Part shown: positions 10,356 through 17,298 of the stretch, one piece after another
How positions within the stretch are numbered: position 1 is the first letter of the stretch
Layout of the letters: every line of letters begins with the position of its first letter
Origin: Methanomicrobiaceae archaeon
Lineage (GTDB): Archaea > Halobacteriota > Methanomicrobia > Methanomicrobiales > Methanomicrobiaceae
Direction of reading: 5' to 3'
Length of the DNA: 64,000 nucleotides
Assembly (NCBI GenBank): GCA_029762625.1
Contig: JARVGI010000001.1
Location: 248,001-312,000 of the forward strand
Program-made: the position numbers and the translations under genes
The notes under the pieces: model-generated
Database searches by the model: none
What the model was told of the DNA's origin: nothing
What the model saw: only the letters and a program-made list of their open reading frames with translations

Positions 10356-11258
10356 ATGGCGAACGGCATCCAGCCCGACCTGACAAATCTGTCCATCAGG
10401 GAGATAGATGTTGGCACCATCCTCTACATTGGCGCCGTTCTTGTCATCGCCTACCTTGCGGCGCGGATGCTCAGCTGGGTGCTCATGCGGCTCTCCGAAC
10501 GCGCCGGGGTCTACCGCATCTCGGTCACCATGGCGATCCCGCTTCTCAAGATCGCCATCTACACCACCGCCCTCTACCTGTTTGTCACTGCCATTATCGA
10601 GCCCTCCCTCTCCCAGCTGACAGTATTCGCAGGATTCTTCGGCGCCGCCCTCGGGTTCGGGTTAAAAGATGTATTCGCCGATATCATCGGTGGGCTTGTG
10701 ATCACCTTCGAGCGGCCCTACCAGATAGGGGACAAGATCGCCATCAAAGAGCACTACGGGGAGGTGATCGATATCGGCCTTCGATCGACCCGCATCCGCA
10801 CCCCCTTCGATTCCGTCGTCACCATCCCCAATTTTATCATCTTCGACCAGTCAGTCTCGAGCGCAAATGCGGGAAAAACCGAAATGATGGTGGTGATCGA
10901 TCTCTTCATCGATCCCGAAAGCAACGCTGAATTAGCGATGGATATTCTTAAAGACGCCGTAGTCACTTCGAAATATGTTTATATCACTGAACACCGCCCC
11001 TATACCATTCTGCTCGACGACTTCCCCTTTTATAAACGGGTCAGGGCGAAAGCCTACGTCAATGATCTGCGGTACGAGTTCGAATTTTTGTCCGAAGTGA
11101 CCCGCCGGGCATGGATGGCTTATGCACGCGAGGGGATTCGCCCACCGCAGGTGCAGCGGATCCTCCCCGAGACGGCCGGACAGACAGCACGCATCAGTGA
11201 ATCACCGGCCCGAAAAGGTATTAATGAACGGCGTTCAGTGGAGAGTCAGGAGGAGTGA
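10356..11258 (+). CDS. MscS-family mechanosensitive ion channel
   Basis: 300 residues with three N-terminal membrane helices (about 25-45, 62-85, 90-110). The pore helix and following beta domain carry FAGFFGAALGFGLKDVFADIIGGLVITFERPYQIGD in essence, the MscS signature of a Gly/Ala-packed TM3 followed by the pressure-sensor beta domain; the C-terminal alpha/beta domain follows (KRVRAKAYV). MscS channels open on membrane tension and release solutes in osmotic downshock. The gene begins directly at the stop codon of the ATPase-like gene and is followed closely by a glutaredoxin, so it is within one operon. Confidence 0.92.
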   Translation: MANGIQPDLTNLSIREIDVGTILYIGAVLVIAYLAARMLSWVLMRLSERAGVYRISVTMAIPLLKIAIYTTALYLFVTAIIEPSLSQLTVFAGFFGAALGFGLKDVFADIIGGLVITFERPYQIGDKIAIKEHYGEVIDIGLRSTRIRTPFDSVVTIPNFIIFDQSVSSANAGKTEMMVVIDLFIDPESNAELAMDILKDAVVTSKYVYITEHRPYTILLDDFPFYKRVRAKAYVNDLRYEFEFLSEVTRRAWMAYAREGIRPPQVQRILPETAGQTARISESPARKGINERRSVESQEE

Positions 11259-11265
11259 GCAAATC

Positions 11266-11544
11266 ATGACGGTCGAACATGTGGACGGCGAAGACCGCGG
11301 CGATATTCTGCTCTATGCACTGAGCACATGCCAGTGGTGCAGGAAGACAAAAGAACTCCTGATGGAGCTGGGAGTGGCGTTTGATTACATCTATGTCGAC
11401 CTCATCGAGGGCAGGGAGCTGGATACCACACTCGATGAGGTCAAAAAATATAATCCCCGCTGTTCCTTTCCCACGCTCATCATCGATGAACGCTGCATCG
11501 CGGGCTTCCAGGAAGAGGCCATCAGGGAGGCGTTGAGCGGATGA
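11266..11544 (+). CDS. Glutaredoxin/NrdH-like redoxin
   Basis: 92 residues with a redox-active CQWC at 22-25 ([15 protein letters not shown]) and the cis-Pro region FPTLIIDER, giving a glutaredoxin/NrdH fold. AGGAGGAG lies about 10 bases upstream of the ATG at 11266. The stop overlaps the FDR start (ATGA), so the two are translationally coupled. In methanogens such redoxins take electrons from ferredoxin:disulfide reductase and pass them to targets such as ribonucleotide reductase; the coupling here supports this partnership. Confidence 0.88.
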
Positions 11545-12047
11545 AACCGGAGGATATCCCCGAAGAAGATGTCGAGCGGCGCTACCAGCAGCTCAAGCGT
11601 GAGGCCGAACGGGGCGGCTATCATCTCAACCCCGACGTAGAATTCACCAAATCGCTGGTCAGGGGGTTGATCGTCAATGAACGGCGCTATGGGTATATGG
11701 GATGCCCCTGCCGACTCAATTCAGGGAACAAAGAGGAGGATCTCGACATCATCTGCCCCTGCGACTACCGCGATCCCGATCTTGTCGACTATGACGCCTG
11801 CTACTGCGCCCTCTACGTGACAAAACCCGTCCTTTCGGGGGAAAAAGAACTGCGGCCCATTCCCGAGCGCCGCCCGCCGCCCGAAGAGCGCGCGCAGCTG
11901 CAACGCCCCGGCCCGGCCCGGCTATCCCTTCCCCTGCCGGTGCTGCGGTGCCGTGTCTGCGGCTACCTCTGCGCACGCACCGATCCTCCGGAGATCTGCC
12001 CTGTCTGCAGGGCGAAAAAGGAGAGGTTCGAACGCTTCATCGAGTAA
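11541..12047 (+). CDS. Ferredoxin:disulfide reductase, FTR catalytic domain fused to a rubredoxin-like domain
   Basis: 168 residues. Residues 1-95 are the catalytic subunit of ferredoxin-thioredoxin reductase with C55-P-C57, C72-P-C74 and C87-Y-C89, which bind a [4Fe-4S] cluster and supply the active-site disulfide. A Pro-rich linker (about 105-132) leads to a rubredoxin-like zinc/iron knuckle with C137, C140, C153 and C156. This fusion is known from methanogen ferredoxin:disulfide reductases, which use ferredoxin to reduce thioredoxin-type proteins. It overlaps the glutaredoxin gene by four bases. The extra C144 (GYLC) is unusual for a rubredoxin knuckle. Confidence 0.9.
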
Positions 12048-12189: not shown

Positions 12190-13158
12190 ATGACAAAAAA
12201 GCAGCATCCACTACCCTATCTTCTCTTTTTCCTGATTGCCATACCTGCGGCATCGGGGTTATGGTTCGGACACTCGGGAGGGAATTTGCCCCTGCTGGGC
12301 GCGGGCATCGTGCTCCTGCTCATCGCCCTGACGGCCGCGTCTTCCACGAAGGTCGCCGACCAGTGGGAGAAGGCAGTGGTGCTCAGGGTGGGCAGGTTCC
12401 GCGCGCTGGCGGGGCCGGGCTTCTTTACCATCATCCCTCTCGTGGACACCATCGCCTACTGGATCGATCTCCGTATCATTACCACCTCGTTCACCGCGGA
12501 AAAGACCCTGACCAAGGATACCGTGCCGGTCGACGTGGAGGCAGTGCTCTTCTGGAAGGTAACCGATCCCAAGAAAGCTGCGCTGGAGGTCGAAAACTAC
12601 CGGTCCGCGATCAGCTGGGCGGCCCAGACGGCGCTGCGCGAGGTGATAGGCAAGTCGAACCTCGCCGACATGCTGGAAGGGCGGGAGAAGCTCGATGCGG
12701 AGCTCCAGAAGATCATCGACCAGCGGACCGAGCAGTGGGGCATCCATATCAGCTCCGTGGAGATCCGCGACATCCTCATCCCCACCGAACTGCAGGATGC
12801 CATGTCCATGCAGGCGCAGGCGGAACGCGAGCGGCAGGCGAGGGTGATTTTGGGTGAGTCGGAAAAGCAGGTGGCCGCACAGTTCGAGGAGGCCGCGCGG
12901 ACCTACGAGCACAACCCCACCGCACTGCACCTGCGGGCGATGAACATGCTCTACGAATGCCTCCGGGAGAACGCCACGCTGGTGCTGGTGCCCTCGTCGG
13001 TGCTCGACACCATGTCACTCGGGGATATTTCCGGGGTCACCGCGCTGTCCAAAGGGCTCGCCGACCAGATGAGGAGGGCGCGTGAAGAGGCGCCTGCACA
13101 CAGGTACAGGACCGAACGGAGCGACGACACCGGAGGAGAGAAAAAGCCCCCTGCATGA
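12190..13158 (+). CDS. SPFH/band 7 protein (stomatin/slipin family)
   Basis: 322 residues with two N-terminal hydrophobic segments (about 8-25 and 32-50), then the slipin band-7 domain: QWEKAVVLRVGRF, GPGFFTIIPLVDT, the LTKDTVPVDVEAVLFWKV strand set and the coiled-coil EMLQAQAERERQAR-like region. Slipins form oligomeric membrane microdomains. They are often paired with an NfeD protease-like protein; none is adjacent. GCGGAGG lies about seven bases before the ATG. Standing alone between the FDR operon and a small membrane protein. Confidence 0.9.
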   Translation: MTKKQHPLPYLLFFLIAIPAASGLWFGHSGGNLPLLGAGIVLLLIALTAASSTKVADQWEKAVVLRVGRFRALAGPGFFTIIPLVDTIAYWIDLRIITTSFTAEKTLTKDTVPVDVEAVLFWKVTDPKKAALEVENYRSAISWAAQTALREVIGKSNLADMLEGREKLDAELQKIIDQRTEQWGIHISSVEIRDILIPTELQDAMSMQAQAERERQARVILGESEKQVAAQFEEAARTYEHNPTALHLRAMNMLYECLRENATLVLVPSSVLDTMSLGDISGVTALSKGLADQMRRAREEAPAHRYRTERSDDTGGEKKPPA

Positions 13159-13396: not shown

Positions 13397-13603
13397 ATGC
13401 AGCCCCAACCACATACCATGAGAAACCAGGTGAAATGGGGAATTGGCCTCATTGCCGCCGGATGCATCCTCTCCATCGCCGGCATCGGCATACCGTTTCT
13501 CGTTATTTATGCCGTCCCCCTCATCCTCATCGGCGCAGCATTGATTGTATTCCGGGCGCGTGAGGATTCAATCGAAGAGGTATACGCGGTGAACGAGCAA
13601 TGA
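13397..13603 (+). CDS. Small two-helix membrane protein
   Basis: 68 residues (61 if the second ATG at 13418 is used), nearly all hydrophobic: WGIGLIAAGCILSIAGIGIP and LVIYAVPLILIGAALIVF form two helices, followed by an acidic tail (REDSIEEVYAVNEQ). A TATA-like GGATATACAC at 13368-13377 is about 25 bases before ATG 13397, fitting a leaderless message. The stop overlaps the start of the YbjQ-type gene (ATGA). No known function. Confidence 0.7.
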   Translation: MQPQPHTMRNQVKWGIGLIAAGCILSIAGIGIPFLVIYAVPLILIGAALIVFRAREDSIEEVYAVNEQ

Positions 13604-13917
13604 TCATCACTACCACAGAATCTTTGAACGGCGCGAGGATGCAGGTCCTCGGCGTTGTGTTCGGCAACACGGTGCGCGCGAAGCACCTCGGAAAGGACGT
13701 CATGTCGGGGTTGAAAAGCCTGGTCGGCGGGGAACTCCAGGAGTACACGGAGATGCTCTCCGATGCCCGCATCGAGGCGACCAACCGCATGATCAACGAA
13801 GCACAGAGGATGGGGGCCGATGCAGTGGTCAATGTCAGGTTCACCACCTCACAGACATCCGCCGCCGCTGCAGAGCTGCTCGCCTACGGGACGGCCGTGA
13901 AACTCCTCAAAGAATAA
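13600..13917 (+). CDS. YbjQ/UPF0145 family protein
   Basis: 105 residues covering a complete YbjQ_1 domain: MIITTTESLNG, VVFGNTVRAKHLGKD, LKSLVGGELQEYTEM, ARIEATNRMINEAQRMGADAVV-type helix and a closing strand. The family forms pentameric rings and has been annotated as heavy-metal binding without firm evidence. It overlaps the upstream small membrane gene by four bases, so the two proteins may work together at the membrane. The 3' end overlaps the convergent lipoprotein gene by 11 bases. Confidence 0.88.
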   Translation: MIITTTESLNGARMQVLGVVFGNTVRAKHLGKDVMSGLKSLVGGELQEYTEMLSDARIEATNRMINEAQRMGADAVVNVRFTTSQTSAAAAELLAYGTAVKLLKE

Positions 13918-14254
13918 CCGGGGCGGGGATGCGGGACGACTCCTCTCCCACTATCGCCTCGATTTCGATAATTTCAATCGGGGTGCCCCACTGCTGGATG
14001 GTGACCACGTCACCCCGCAGTTGTGCCACGAACCGCACCCGCAGTCCCTGAACCTTATACTCGTCAGCGAGGTTGATCGGGTAGTACTTGTGGCCGTCAT
14101 CGCTGACAATACCGAAGAATCCCCCCTCCAGAGGGACGATACGCACCGTTCCCTTCCCGGAAAACACGGCGTCTTCACCGCGCTGCTGACCGCCGAGGCA
14201 CCCTGACGAGAGGATGCACCCGATGAGCAGTAACAGCACCATCCTTTGCTTCAT
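13907..14254 (-). CDS. Small lipoprotein of unknown function
   Basis: 115 residues. The N-terminus MKQRMVLLLLIGCILSSGC is a lipoprotein signal with the lipobox LSSGC. The mature part is a small beta-rich domain (GKGTVRIVPLEGGFFGIVSDDG, VRFVAQLRGDVVTIQQWG) that resembles an OB-fold, with an ending EIEAI. The frame is open up to 14389, but that part lacks signal-peptide character. Convergent with, and overlapping, the YbjQ-type gene. Family not recognised. Confidence 0.75.
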   Translation of the reverse strand: MKQRMVLLLLIGCILSSGCLGGQQRGEDAVFSGKGTVRIVPLEGGFFGIVSDDGHKYYPINLADEYKVQGLRVRFVAQLRGDVVTIQQWGTPIEIIEIEAIVGEESSRIPAPVIL

Positions 14255-14388
14255 GCTCTTCAGCCTGAATTCTTTCCTCCGCGAATCATAATCCTTGTGC
14301 ATGGTGCCCGGATGGCTCCGGGTGACGCGAGGGATGCGCTTTGCCCGGCGAGTGCTTCCGGAGCTGCCTTCCGGGCGTCCGGGCTGCA

Positions 14389-14400
14389 TTTATATACTTT
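14389..14400 (+). promoter_or_regulatory. TATA box of the rubredoxin-ThDP enzyme gene
   Basis: TTTATATACTTT, a very good archaeal TATA element, lies 60 bases before the ATG at 14449. Expected transcription start is about 14420, leaving a short leader with the GGGGGTGA Shine-Dalgarno (14434-14441). Confidence 0.7.
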
Positions 14401-14448
14401 GCCCGGTGTTCACTTGCGTATATACCCGGGTTCCGGGGGTGAGTGGTG

Positions 14449-16413
14449 ATGGCAAAATGGAAGTGCAGCGTCTGTGGCTACGTGTACGATGAGGAGCAGG
14501 GGGAGCCCGCGACCGGCACGCCGCCGGGTACCGCCTTCGAGGACCTGCCGGGCGACTGGCGCTGTCCGGTATGCAATGCAGAGAAATCGGCGTTTTCCCG
14601 CACCGGCGACGAGGAGAAGGGCGGCGCCGCCCTGTTCATGAAGTGGCGGTGCAGCGTCTGCGGCTACGAATACGACGAGAAGGCGGGGGAACCTGCGACC
14701 GGTACGCCGCCGGGGACACGGTTCGCGGAACTCCCCCGGACATGGCGCTGCCCGGTCTGCGGCGCAAAAAAAAGCGCGTTTTCCATGGTGAAAAAGGAAG
14801 AACTCGTGCATGCCAGAGCGGATACGACCGTCTCCGACGTGCTCATCGCCGAGATGGAGGCGCGGGGCATCACGCTGGTGTTCGGGATCCCGGGGACCTC
14901 CTCGCTCGGGCTCGTGGACGCGCTCAGGAAAAACCCGAACATGCGGTATATCGTGGTGCGGCACGAGGAGAACGCCGCCATGGCCGCGTCTGCCTACAAT
15001 AAACTCACCGGGAAGATCGCCGCCTGCCTGACCATCGCGGGGCCAGGAGCGACCAACCTCGCAACCGGGCTCTACGACGCAAAAGAGGATCATGCCCCGG
15101 TCCTCTCCCTCAACGGGCAGGTTACAATCCAGTACACGGGGCCGGGAGGCATCCAGGAGATCGATCAGGACGCCTTCTTCCGCCCGATCACCGTGTTCAA
15201 CAACACCATCTATGACAAAAAGACCGCAGTCCTGCTCCTTACAAAGGCCATCAAATACGCCACCATCCACCGGGGGGTCGCCCAGCTCTCCGTTCCCAAC
15301 GATATCCAGAAAGAGCCGCTGGACGCCCCCATATCAAGAAGGGAAAGTTGCATCTCCGGATTCGGGATCGTGCAGGACGACGGCGACATCGAGAGGGCGG
15401 CGGAGGCCATCAACCGTGCAAAGCGCCCCGTCGTCATTGCCGGATGGGGCGCCTTCGATCTCCCCGGGGAGGTGGTCGTCCTCGCCCGCACCATTCAGGC
15501 GCCCATCGTCACCACCTTCCGTGCCAAGGGGATGCTCCCCGACGACCATGCATGGAACGCGGGCATTCTCGGGTCGCTGGGCCCACCGCATGCTCGGAAA
15601 CTCGTCGACGAGGCGGATCTCCTCATTACGCTTGGCGTCGGGTTCTCGAAATTCACCAACGTGCCCCTTGATACCATGATGGTGCAGGTGGACACGGACC
15701 CGATCAAGCTGGGCAAAAATCCGGAGGGCATATCGCTCTGGAGCAATGCCAGGCTCCTGATCCCCAGACTGGTCCCGAAGCTGCGGGCGCGGCATGACAG
15801 CGGCATCCTCGCCGAAATCGGAAACATGAAGCGGGAGTGGCAGGAGCACATCGACGGTGAGGCTGACCCCGATGCCGTGCCCCTCCGCCCGCCCTACATC
15901 ATGAAGGTGCTCTCGGAGACCGTTCCCGAGGATGCCGTAATTTCAGTCGACGTGGGGGAGATCCAGTGGTGGTTCGGCAGGAATTTCCGCATGAAACGGC
16001 AGCGGTTTGCCATGTCCGGCTATCTCGGCACCATGGGGTTCGGGCTTCCCGGGGCAATCGCCGCGAAACTGGCCTATCCGGAGAAGACCGTGGTGTGCAT
16101 CACCGGCGACGGCGGATTTTCGATGGCCATGGCGGAATTCGTCACCACGGTCAAGTACGATCTCCCCATGGTCGTTGTGGTCTTCAACAATCACCAGCTG
16201 GCCATGATCCAGGTCGAGCAGATGATGGAGCAGTACCCGAACTTCGGCACGGATCTGCTCAACCCGGATTTTGCCGCATATGCAGAGGCGTGCGGCGGCA
16301 CCGGCATCAGGGTTGCGGAGCCGTCGGCACTCAGGGGCGCCGTCGAGCACGCCATCAACCTCAACCGGCCGGTCATTATCGACGTGGACACCGATCCCCG
16401 GCGGTTCTTCTGA
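14449..16413 (+). CDS. Double rubredoxin fused to a thiamine-diphosphate-dependent enzyme (acetolactate synthase/pyruvate oxidase-like)
   Basis: 654 residues. Two complete rubredoxins come first: C6/C9/C39/C42 and C68/C71/C101/C104, each with CPVC and [14 protein letters not shown]. From about residue 125 a full ThDP enzyme follows: Pyr domain with the catalytic Glu (RHEE, E173) and [14 protein letters not shown], the central domain (about 310-460) with PVVIAGWGA, and the PP domain with GDGG at 553 and NN at 580-581 (the Mg-ThDP motif). These enzymes decarboxylate 2-oxo acids such as pyruvate. The fused rubredoxins suggest that electrons from the hydroxyethyl intermediate leave through iron instead of FAD or oxygen, but substrate and acceptor are unknown. 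Starts at ATG 14449 on the basis of the Shine-Dalgarno. Confidence 0.85.
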
Positions 16414-16443: not shown

Positions 16444-17133
16444 TCACAGCCCCCAGCGGCACTCCATATCCTCAACGATGCCTGCGCCTGAGACCTGCGC
16501 CACTTCCTCCACCCAGATGATCTCGCAGGCACCCTCCAGCTCGTCCTCTCTCGTCCTGCTGGTATTCCACGTATACGTCGACCCACGGGAATCCACCCCG
16601 CGGACGTCGACCAGATATCCCCGTATCTCGACAACATCGCCGATCCCGACAGCCTCTGCCGCAGCCTGCACCGATTCATTGGCAAAGATGCAGTGGTTGT
16701 TGCTGCTGTGGCCGTTGATATACGAGTAATTGAGTGCCGGGCAACCGGCAGGAAAATGGCAGTGGTAATTGAGGTGGCGGGGCTCTTTGTAATAGCTGAC
16801 GTAATCCTCGTAGGGCGCCTCGATGAGCTTTCCCCATGCAAAACTCAGGTCAACCGGCGAGAGCGTGTCCGGTGTAGACCCCGAATAATTGTCTCTCGCC
16901 ACCAGTTTTCCGCGCAGGGTGTAGCGTGCGACGGCGGTCATCGTGAAATGCCAGTCACCGATGCCGCGGCTGAAGGCGTCCGGCGACGTGAGATTTTCCT
17001 GTAGAGGCCCTATCACGGGAGCCTCGGTGCGCAGCTCTCCTTCGGCGGCGACACCTCCGGGCATCAAACCGGCGCCGCTGAGAATGGCACTGGCGAACAT
17101 GGCGCCCATGATGAGCAGGGATGGGATGTTCAT
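16444..17133 (-). CDS. Secreted conserved protein of a bacterial-type periplasmic family
   Basis: 229 residues starting at ATG 17131-17133, which is preceded by GGTGGAGGAG. A signal peptide (about residues 1-29) is followed by WHFTMTAVARYTLRG, LSPVDLSFAWGKL, a His/Cys-rich insertion (HLNYHCHFPAGC, INGHSSNNHCIF), GDVVEIRGYLVDV and RTREDELEGACEIIWVEEV. The SPVDL..WG, NxH, GxLV and GACE(I/L)IWVE signatures recall an unnamed family of exported proteins known from Proteobacteria. The order of motifs suggests an OB-like barrel. Function unknown. Convergent with the rubredoxin-ThDP gene (30 bases). Confidence 0.75.
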   Translation of the reverse strand: MNIPSLLIMGAMFASAILSGAGLMPGGVAAEGELRTEAPVIGPLQENLTSPDAFSRGIGDWHFTMTAVARYTLRGKLVARDNYSGSTPDTLSPVDLSFAWGKLIEAPYEDYVSYYKEPRHLNYHCHFPAGCPALNYSYINGHSSNNHCIFANESVQAAAEAVGIGDVVEIRGYLVDVRGVDSRGSTYTWNTSRTREDELEGACEIIWVEEVAQVSGAGIVEDMECRWGL

Positions 17134-17298
17134 TGACTCCTCCACCGACCCCGCCGCCGGCGGCAGGTGCATACGCAGCTGGATCTCATAATGGTTCCGT
17201 CCGGACAGGAGAACGGCCCGCACCGCCACTGTGCGGGGCGCGCGTGCAGAAATGCTCCTGCGGCCGCATACCGGACCTGATCTCAATTCGGCAGGGGA

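Follow-up and report, generated by a model that had tools for sequence, protein, structure and literature searches.

Known pyruvate oxidases deliver their electrons to O2 or to quinone. In these enzymes (POX), the flavin accepts two electrons from hydroxyethyl-ThDP, and in acetolactate synthase (AHAS) it does likewise as a side reaction (PMC5298238). PFOR/POR follows a related principle, in which ThDP-dependent oxidation of a 2-oxo acid is coupled to an iron center acting as a one-electron acceptor. To our knowledge, the electron donor of rubredoxin is unclear in many methanogens. Fusions that tie rubredoxin directly to a redox partner are described, such as the flavodiiron-rubredoxin-rubredoxin reductase fusion of Trichomonas (PMC9364112). 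The partner is a flavodiiron protein in that case and an FMN protein in the rubredoxin-GltS-like proteins considered below, whereas in the gene studied here it is a ThDP enzyme. In the open-access literature that we searched, we found no description of a ThDP enzyme fused to rubredoxin or to a Rieske domain, though an unseen description is possible.

A gene for two rubredoxins and a ThDP enzyme

We analyzed a stretch of 64,000 nucleotides (hereafter, the window; G000:C11:248001-312000) from the 99.8% complete genome of a Methanomicrobiales methanogen. The gene (Table 1) is a single complete ORF with its ATG at 14449, its stop at 16413, and an in-frame GTG at 14443 ahead of the ATG. It is solitary, with minus-strand ORFs on both sides (13907-14389 upstream and 16444-17286 downstream). 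The nearest named record of the protein, at 95% identity, is “Methanoculleus sp. SpSt-1212”, and orthologs with 57-95% identity are conserved across many genomes, which rules out a chance or artefactual ORF. ORFs on the opposite strand across the gene are interrupted in frame and unsupported. The original prediction had taken a TATA box and a Shine-Dalgarno sequence as marks of a real gene; both are present, the former kept in two close orthologs and the latter retained in one of them (L031) and altered in the other (L032). The gene is thus genuine, as first observed. No riboswitch or other RNA family was detected upstream of it at Rfam gathering cut-offs.

Table 1 Features of the rubredoxin-ThDP gene, in window coordinates (aa, residues of the encoded protein)
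Feature	Coordinates	Strand	Basis
Archaeal TATA box TTTATATA	14389..14396	+	Sequence; identical octamer in L031 (95%) and L032 (87%)
Shine-Dalgarno-like GGGGGTGA	14435..14442	+	Sequence; 6 nt ahead of ATG
CDS, 654 aa, rubredoxin-rubredoxin-ThDP enzyme (POX-like)	14449..16413	+	ORF, Pfam, orthologs
Rubredoxin domain 1, aa 3-49	14455..14595	+	Pfam PF00301, 81 bits
Rubredoxin domain 2, aa 65-111	14641..14781	+	Pfam PF00301, 78 bits
TPP_enzyme_N, aa 127-241	14827..15171	+	PF02776, E 1.7e-35
Catalytic Glu codon, E173 = PoxB E50	14965..14967	+	Alignment; invariant in 48 aligned family members
TPP_enzyme_M (FAD-type central), aa 314-440	15388..15768	+	PF00205, E 5.4e-28; above cut-off
GILGSLGP loop, counterpart of PoxB 249-256 (FAD loop)	15562..15585	+	Alignment
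TPP_enzyme_C, aa 501-646	15949..16386	+	PF02775, E 3.9e-43
Mg-ThDP motif GDG (aa 553-555) ... NN (580-581)	16105..16191	+	Sequence, alignment
E590, aligned with LpPOX E483; AHAS Trp position	16216..16218	+	Alignment; invariant in family

The two rubredoxin stretches (joint E 4.7e-42 in the Pfam search) are complete, as had been claimed: Each carries two CxxC pairs in the form C-x2-C ... C-P-x-C, together with the Y, F, and W core. Across 71 rubredoxin domains from 59 loci, this core (two Tyr, Glu, Phe, and Trp) is nearly invariant, and it is intact wherever the domain occurs, so that the degeneration in homologs by which the original prediction could have failed is not seen; the invariance of the four cysteines is not independent evidence, since they were part of the search pattern behind the 71-domain set. 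Core identity is 0.755 between the two rubredoxins within one protein, and 0.74 and 0.73 for the same rubredoxin between species, values that fit one old duplication and repeated homogenization equally.

Other rubredoxin genes and redox genes lie in the same genome. A gene at window positions 11541-12047 (+), 2.4 kb upstream, fuses a FeThRed_B (ferredoxin-thioredoxin reductase catalytic) domain to a C-terminal rubredoxin-like domain and directly follows a glutaredoxin-like gene (11122-11544). Just upstream of the rubredoxin-ThDP gene are an SPFH/Band 7 gene and a YbjQ-family gene (12190-13158 and 13600-13917, +). Elsewhere, the genome encodes a double-rubredoxin protein standing alone (G000:C27:38700-39005, L198), which is present in most related genomes searched, and a tandem pair of stand-alone rubredoxin genes with one complete domain each (G000:C24:34298-34608, L199). 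Rubrerythrins are encoded as well.

Affinity to pyruvate oxidases and the putative flavin site

Beyond the rubredoxins, the protein has the N-M-C architecture of LpPOX, E. coli PoxB, Corynebacterium PQO, and the PRK08611 family, with which it shares the three ThDP domains, the catalytic Glu, the glutamate of the LpPOX E483 type, the GDG...NN motif, and the FAD-type loop. In a careful tree built, like all our trees, from the enzyme domains alone, the archaeal members formed a clade (98/94) sister to bacterial POX (99/97), with AHAS outside; a larger quick tree again placed the archaeal members in one clade (95 SH-aLRT). PDB matches came in the order LpPOX, PoxB, and Corynebacterium PQO, and a Foldseek search with the AlphaFold2 model (pLDDT 87.6, pTM 0.79) agreed with this placement, returning PQO, LpPOX, and PoxB as best matches. 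Among NCBIfam models, pyruvate oxidase PRK08611 ranked first at 489.7 bits, a score under its cut-off of 742, and every AHAS model scored below it (the top one reached 335.7 bits of the 866 required). Identity is about 30-39% to enzymes of the POX kind and about 33% to AHAS. Judged by sequence, tree, and predicted structure, the enzyme is therefore closest to pyruvate oxidases (LpPOX, PoxB, PQO, and the Bacillus type) and not to acetolactate synthase. The original description as acetolactate-synthase/pyruvate-oxidase-like thus stands as regards a ThDP enzyme with a catalytic Glu and Mg-ThDP motif; its acetolactate-synthase half is disfavored by the tree, the NCBIfam ranking, and the replacement of the AHAS Trp by Glu.

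The protein also departs from its closest relatives. Unlike POX, PoxB, and PQO, it carries N-terminal rubredoxins (Rieske in some relatives) and ends 8 aa past the TPP_C match, whereas LpPOX chains (585-603 aa) extend at least 50 residues beyond theirs. It thus has no counterpart of the extension found at the C terminus of POX and PoxB, which in PoxB binds membranes, and this fits a soluble enzyme. The Phe at LpPOX position 479, which serves electron transfer from ThDP to FAD, is here Met586, a residue found in the same column of AHAS and of Bacillus enzymes annotated as pyruvate oxidase, and a second Phe near the LpPOX FAD is likewise replaced (I/V/L/F at that site). The comparison with AHAS is of the same mixed kind: The superfamily fold, the FAD-type central domain, and the Met near ThDP are shared, whereas the enzyme belongs to a different clade and lacks the acceptor Trp. 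The resemblance to PFOR/POR lies in principle only, as the domain order is unrelated and Pfam matched neither PFOR domains nor any [4Fe-4S] or CoA domain in the protein. Sulfopyruvate had been suggested as a substrate, and nothing was found in support of sulfopyruvate decarboxylation. ComDE-type sulfopyruvate decarboxylase is without the central domain.

The central domain bears directly on the earlier proposal that the enzyme is independent of FAD. The loop given in Table 1, for which we take the PoxB numbering to be 249-256, occurs here just as it does in POX, PoxB, and AHAS, whereas E. coli oxalyl-CoA decarboxylase (Oxc), an enzyme without FAD, has a deletion at this place; the GxG and the D-x-D-P strand of FAD enzymes are retained too. 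Because this loop is kept and a flavin takes the electrons in both POX and AHAS, FAD is to be expected in the window enzyme. The conservation that the original prediction had proposed to inspect therefore runs contrary to a FAD-free reading, as does the use of FAD by LpPOX, PoxB, and PQO, which stand closest to it in the tree and in fold.

Exchange of iron carriers and recurrent neighbors

The enzyme was found in 103 of the 199 sampled genomes of the class (E < 1e-110), with relatives across the phylum. Within the one supported clade, the N-terminal carrier varies among two rubredoxins, one rubredoxin, a separate rubredoxin gene, a short rubredoxin, a Rieske domain, and none. Two rubredoxins occur at twelve named loci, in the window’s genus and its kin, Methanolinea-like genomes, and Methanocalculus; at one further such locus, the first rubredoxin sits in an overlapping ORF. 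A single rubredoxin is commoner and includes two records labeled Methanomassiliicoccaceae. In Methanoculleus, the rubredoxin is a separate upstream gene that shares about 20 nt with the gene of the enzyme. Short rubredoxins occur in Methanosarcinaceae-like genomes (labels of this form were inferred from kinship and gene content) and two other families, and the carrier is absent in Methanofollis-like genomes, f10, f31, and f7. A Rieske [2Fe-2S] domain takes the N-terminal position in Halorubrum, Haloferax, Salinirubellus, and further haloarchaea, as well as on one actinobacterial plasmid of Mycobacteroides.

Some of these loci have further features. Three Methanosarcinaceae-like loci encode a CDGSH/Fer4_19 iron-sulfur protein immediately upstream of the short-rubredoxin enzyme (L139:7407-8042, -; L141:4400-5035, +; L142:6933-7568, -), and at another locus a stand-alone Rieske gene lies beside, and divergent to, such an enzyme (L148:5074-5424, +). 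The actinobacterial gene (L150:2698-4599, Mycobacteroides abscessus), surrounded by flavodoxin-family and DUF4331 genes, likely reflects transfer between haloarchaea and actinobacteria, in either direction.

Two neighbors recur in several lineages. One is malic enzyme, which forms pyruvate and is encoded next to or near the ThDP gene at 8 loci; in the ortholog with 87% identity (L032), its gene is 101 bp upstream in the same orientation. The other is a GltS-like FMN protein with a Glu_synthase domain and no amidotransferase match. Methanogens encode it as a rubredoxin fusion of about 490 aa (Rd-GltS; L104:4424-5914; L043:8040-9524, -; L082:4093-5556, -; L168; L171-L173), and in the version of haloarchaea a Rieske domain takes the place of the rubredoxin (L144:9828-11540; L155:5994-7617). 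Rd-GltS adjoins the enzyme in Methanoregula-type and Methanomassiliicoccaceae loci, a carrier-free version does so in f7 loci and on a Priestia plasmid, and the haloarchaeal Rieske-GltS lies 1-4 kb away (18 kb in G274). The carrier type matches at linked loci: rubredoxin with rubredoxin (L043, L104, L082, and L100), Rieske with Rieske (L144, L145, and L155), and none with none (L135-L137 and L152); the Halorarius GltS is known from annotation only. No GltS was found within 15 kb of the enzyme on Haloferax and Halorubrum plasmids, nor beside it in a second Bacillus-type plasmid record. The genome of the window itself encodes neither malic enzyme nor Rd-GltS, having ordinary GltS only, so that neither neighbor is obligatory.

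Other neighbors were confined to single lineages. The flavodiiron protein FprA, near the enzyme at 17 Methanoculleus loci, fits a role in oxygen stress in this one lineage. At a distance of about 2-4 kb, the ThDP gene is accompanied by a RuBisCO gene at only five loci, all closely related (L033, L034, L036, L058, and L107), and by a phosphoribulokinase (PRK) gene only in Methanoculleus (L060, L069, and others) and one relative. Given this restriction, both probably reflect local synteny, and we read the lineage-local aquaporin, isochorismatase, and SPFH genes likewise. Several Methanoculleus loci, too, have an SPFH gene ahead of the enzyme.

Proposed reaction and its alternatives

Taken together, we consider the protein to be probably a soluble 2-oxo acid:rubredoxin oxidoreductase, with pyruvate:rubredoxin as the most likely activity. 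Pyruvate would add to ThDP, activated by Glu173, and lose CO2. The resulting hydroxyethyl-ThDP carbanion would reduce the FAD of the central domain with two electrons, and the flavin would relay these one by one to the pair of fused Fe(SCys)4 centers, which, at one electron each, could store one whole turnover. Acetate would be released by hydrolysis, for a net reaction of pyruvate and water to acetate, CO2, and two electrons. The rubredoxins would thereby stand in for the C-terminal membrane/quinone module of PoxB and PQO, and once reduced could serve cytosolic rubredoxin users such as rubrerythrins. Compared with PFOR/POR, a carrier of higher potential is expected, which would render the oxidation effectively irreversible. 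Pyruvate is the probable substrate, to which the malic enzyme neighbors point indirectly, and the variation of the carrier in this branch, rubredoxin fused or encoded next door or else Rieske, suggests that the enzyme oxidizes it and reduces iron in one-electron steps. The original notion of a soluble ThDP enzyme that oxidizes a 2-oxo acid and reduces iron is supported by the carrier linkage and the missing C-terminal extension; its independence of FAD is not supported. Several observations sit less easily with a pyruvate:rubredoxin oxidoreductase: the Met in place of LpPOX Phe479, by which transfer from ThDP to FAD may differ from that in LpPOX; the missed PRK08611 cut-off; the carrier-free members of the clade; and a window genome with neither recurrent neighbor.

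The flavin might be bypassed altogether, with hydroxyethyl-ThDP reducing rubredoxin iron directly, as PFOR reduces its [4Fe-4S] cluster. Two one-electron acceptors in one chain and the loss of both FAD-proximal Phe residues would suit such a route, which is possible; the FAD-type central domain and the closest folds, all FAD enzymes, make it less likely than one through FAD, and we regard a FAD-free enzyme as very unlikely. We give little more credence to a carboligase of the acetolactate-synthase type whose rubredoxins regulate or sense redox state. Its Met586, its level of identity to AHAS, and the presence of FAD in AHAS too are compatible with this role, yet the enzyme groups with POX to the exclusion of AHAS, has Glu at the acceptor-site Trp, and scores better against POX models, and the genome encodes a canonical AHAS separately (C11:189874-191469). 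These same points disfavor acetolactate synthesis as its main function. Rubredoxins that act as structural zinc modules or redox sensors, carrying no electrons, appear to us the most improbable. Rubredoxin-like zinc domains do occur in unrelated proteins, and some homologs keep the enzyme without any rubredoxin; against this, the rubredoxin cores are fully canonical, Methanoculleus encodes the domain as its own overlapping gene, and haloarchaea substitute a Rieske cluster, which is an electron carrier. Since the same enzyme is repeatedly fused or linked to rubredoxin, Rieske, and CDGSH proteins, electron transfer is favored.

The destination of the electrons may differ from the general one envisaged above. 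In a matched redox pair, the ThDP enzyme would feed the FMN GltS-like protein through a carrier type common to both, an idea we rate as rather doubtful. The adjacency in Methanoregula, Methanomassiliicoccaceae, f7, and the Priestia plasmid and the agreement of carrier types speak for it, as does co-occurrence: Among the 199 class genomes, the enzyme is present in 32 of the 42 that have Rd-GltS and in 71 of the 157 that lack it (Fisher p 4e-4, kinship not corrected). Yet the window genome and many others hold the enzyme without Rd-GltS, and away from linkage, Methanofollis-like genomes and G262 combine Rd-GltS with a rubredoxin-free enzyme. More tentative still is a hitherto undescribed redox module in which a POX-type ThDP dehydrogenase and the FMN GltS-like enzyme share a matched, interchangeable carrier, rubredoxin in methanogens and Rieske in haloarchaea, with 2-oxo acid oxidation driving an FMN-dependent reduction.

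A whole archaeal branch thus appears to have gained, by fusion or linkage, a one-electron iron carrier of its own, the two types (rubredoxin and Rieske) being swapped between lineages, and the carrier match with the GltS-like neighbor offers a concrete pairing. If the pyruvate:rubredoxin assignment is true, strict anaerobes would possess a soluble, CoA-independent outlet for pyruvate and, with it, a source of reduced rubredoxin.
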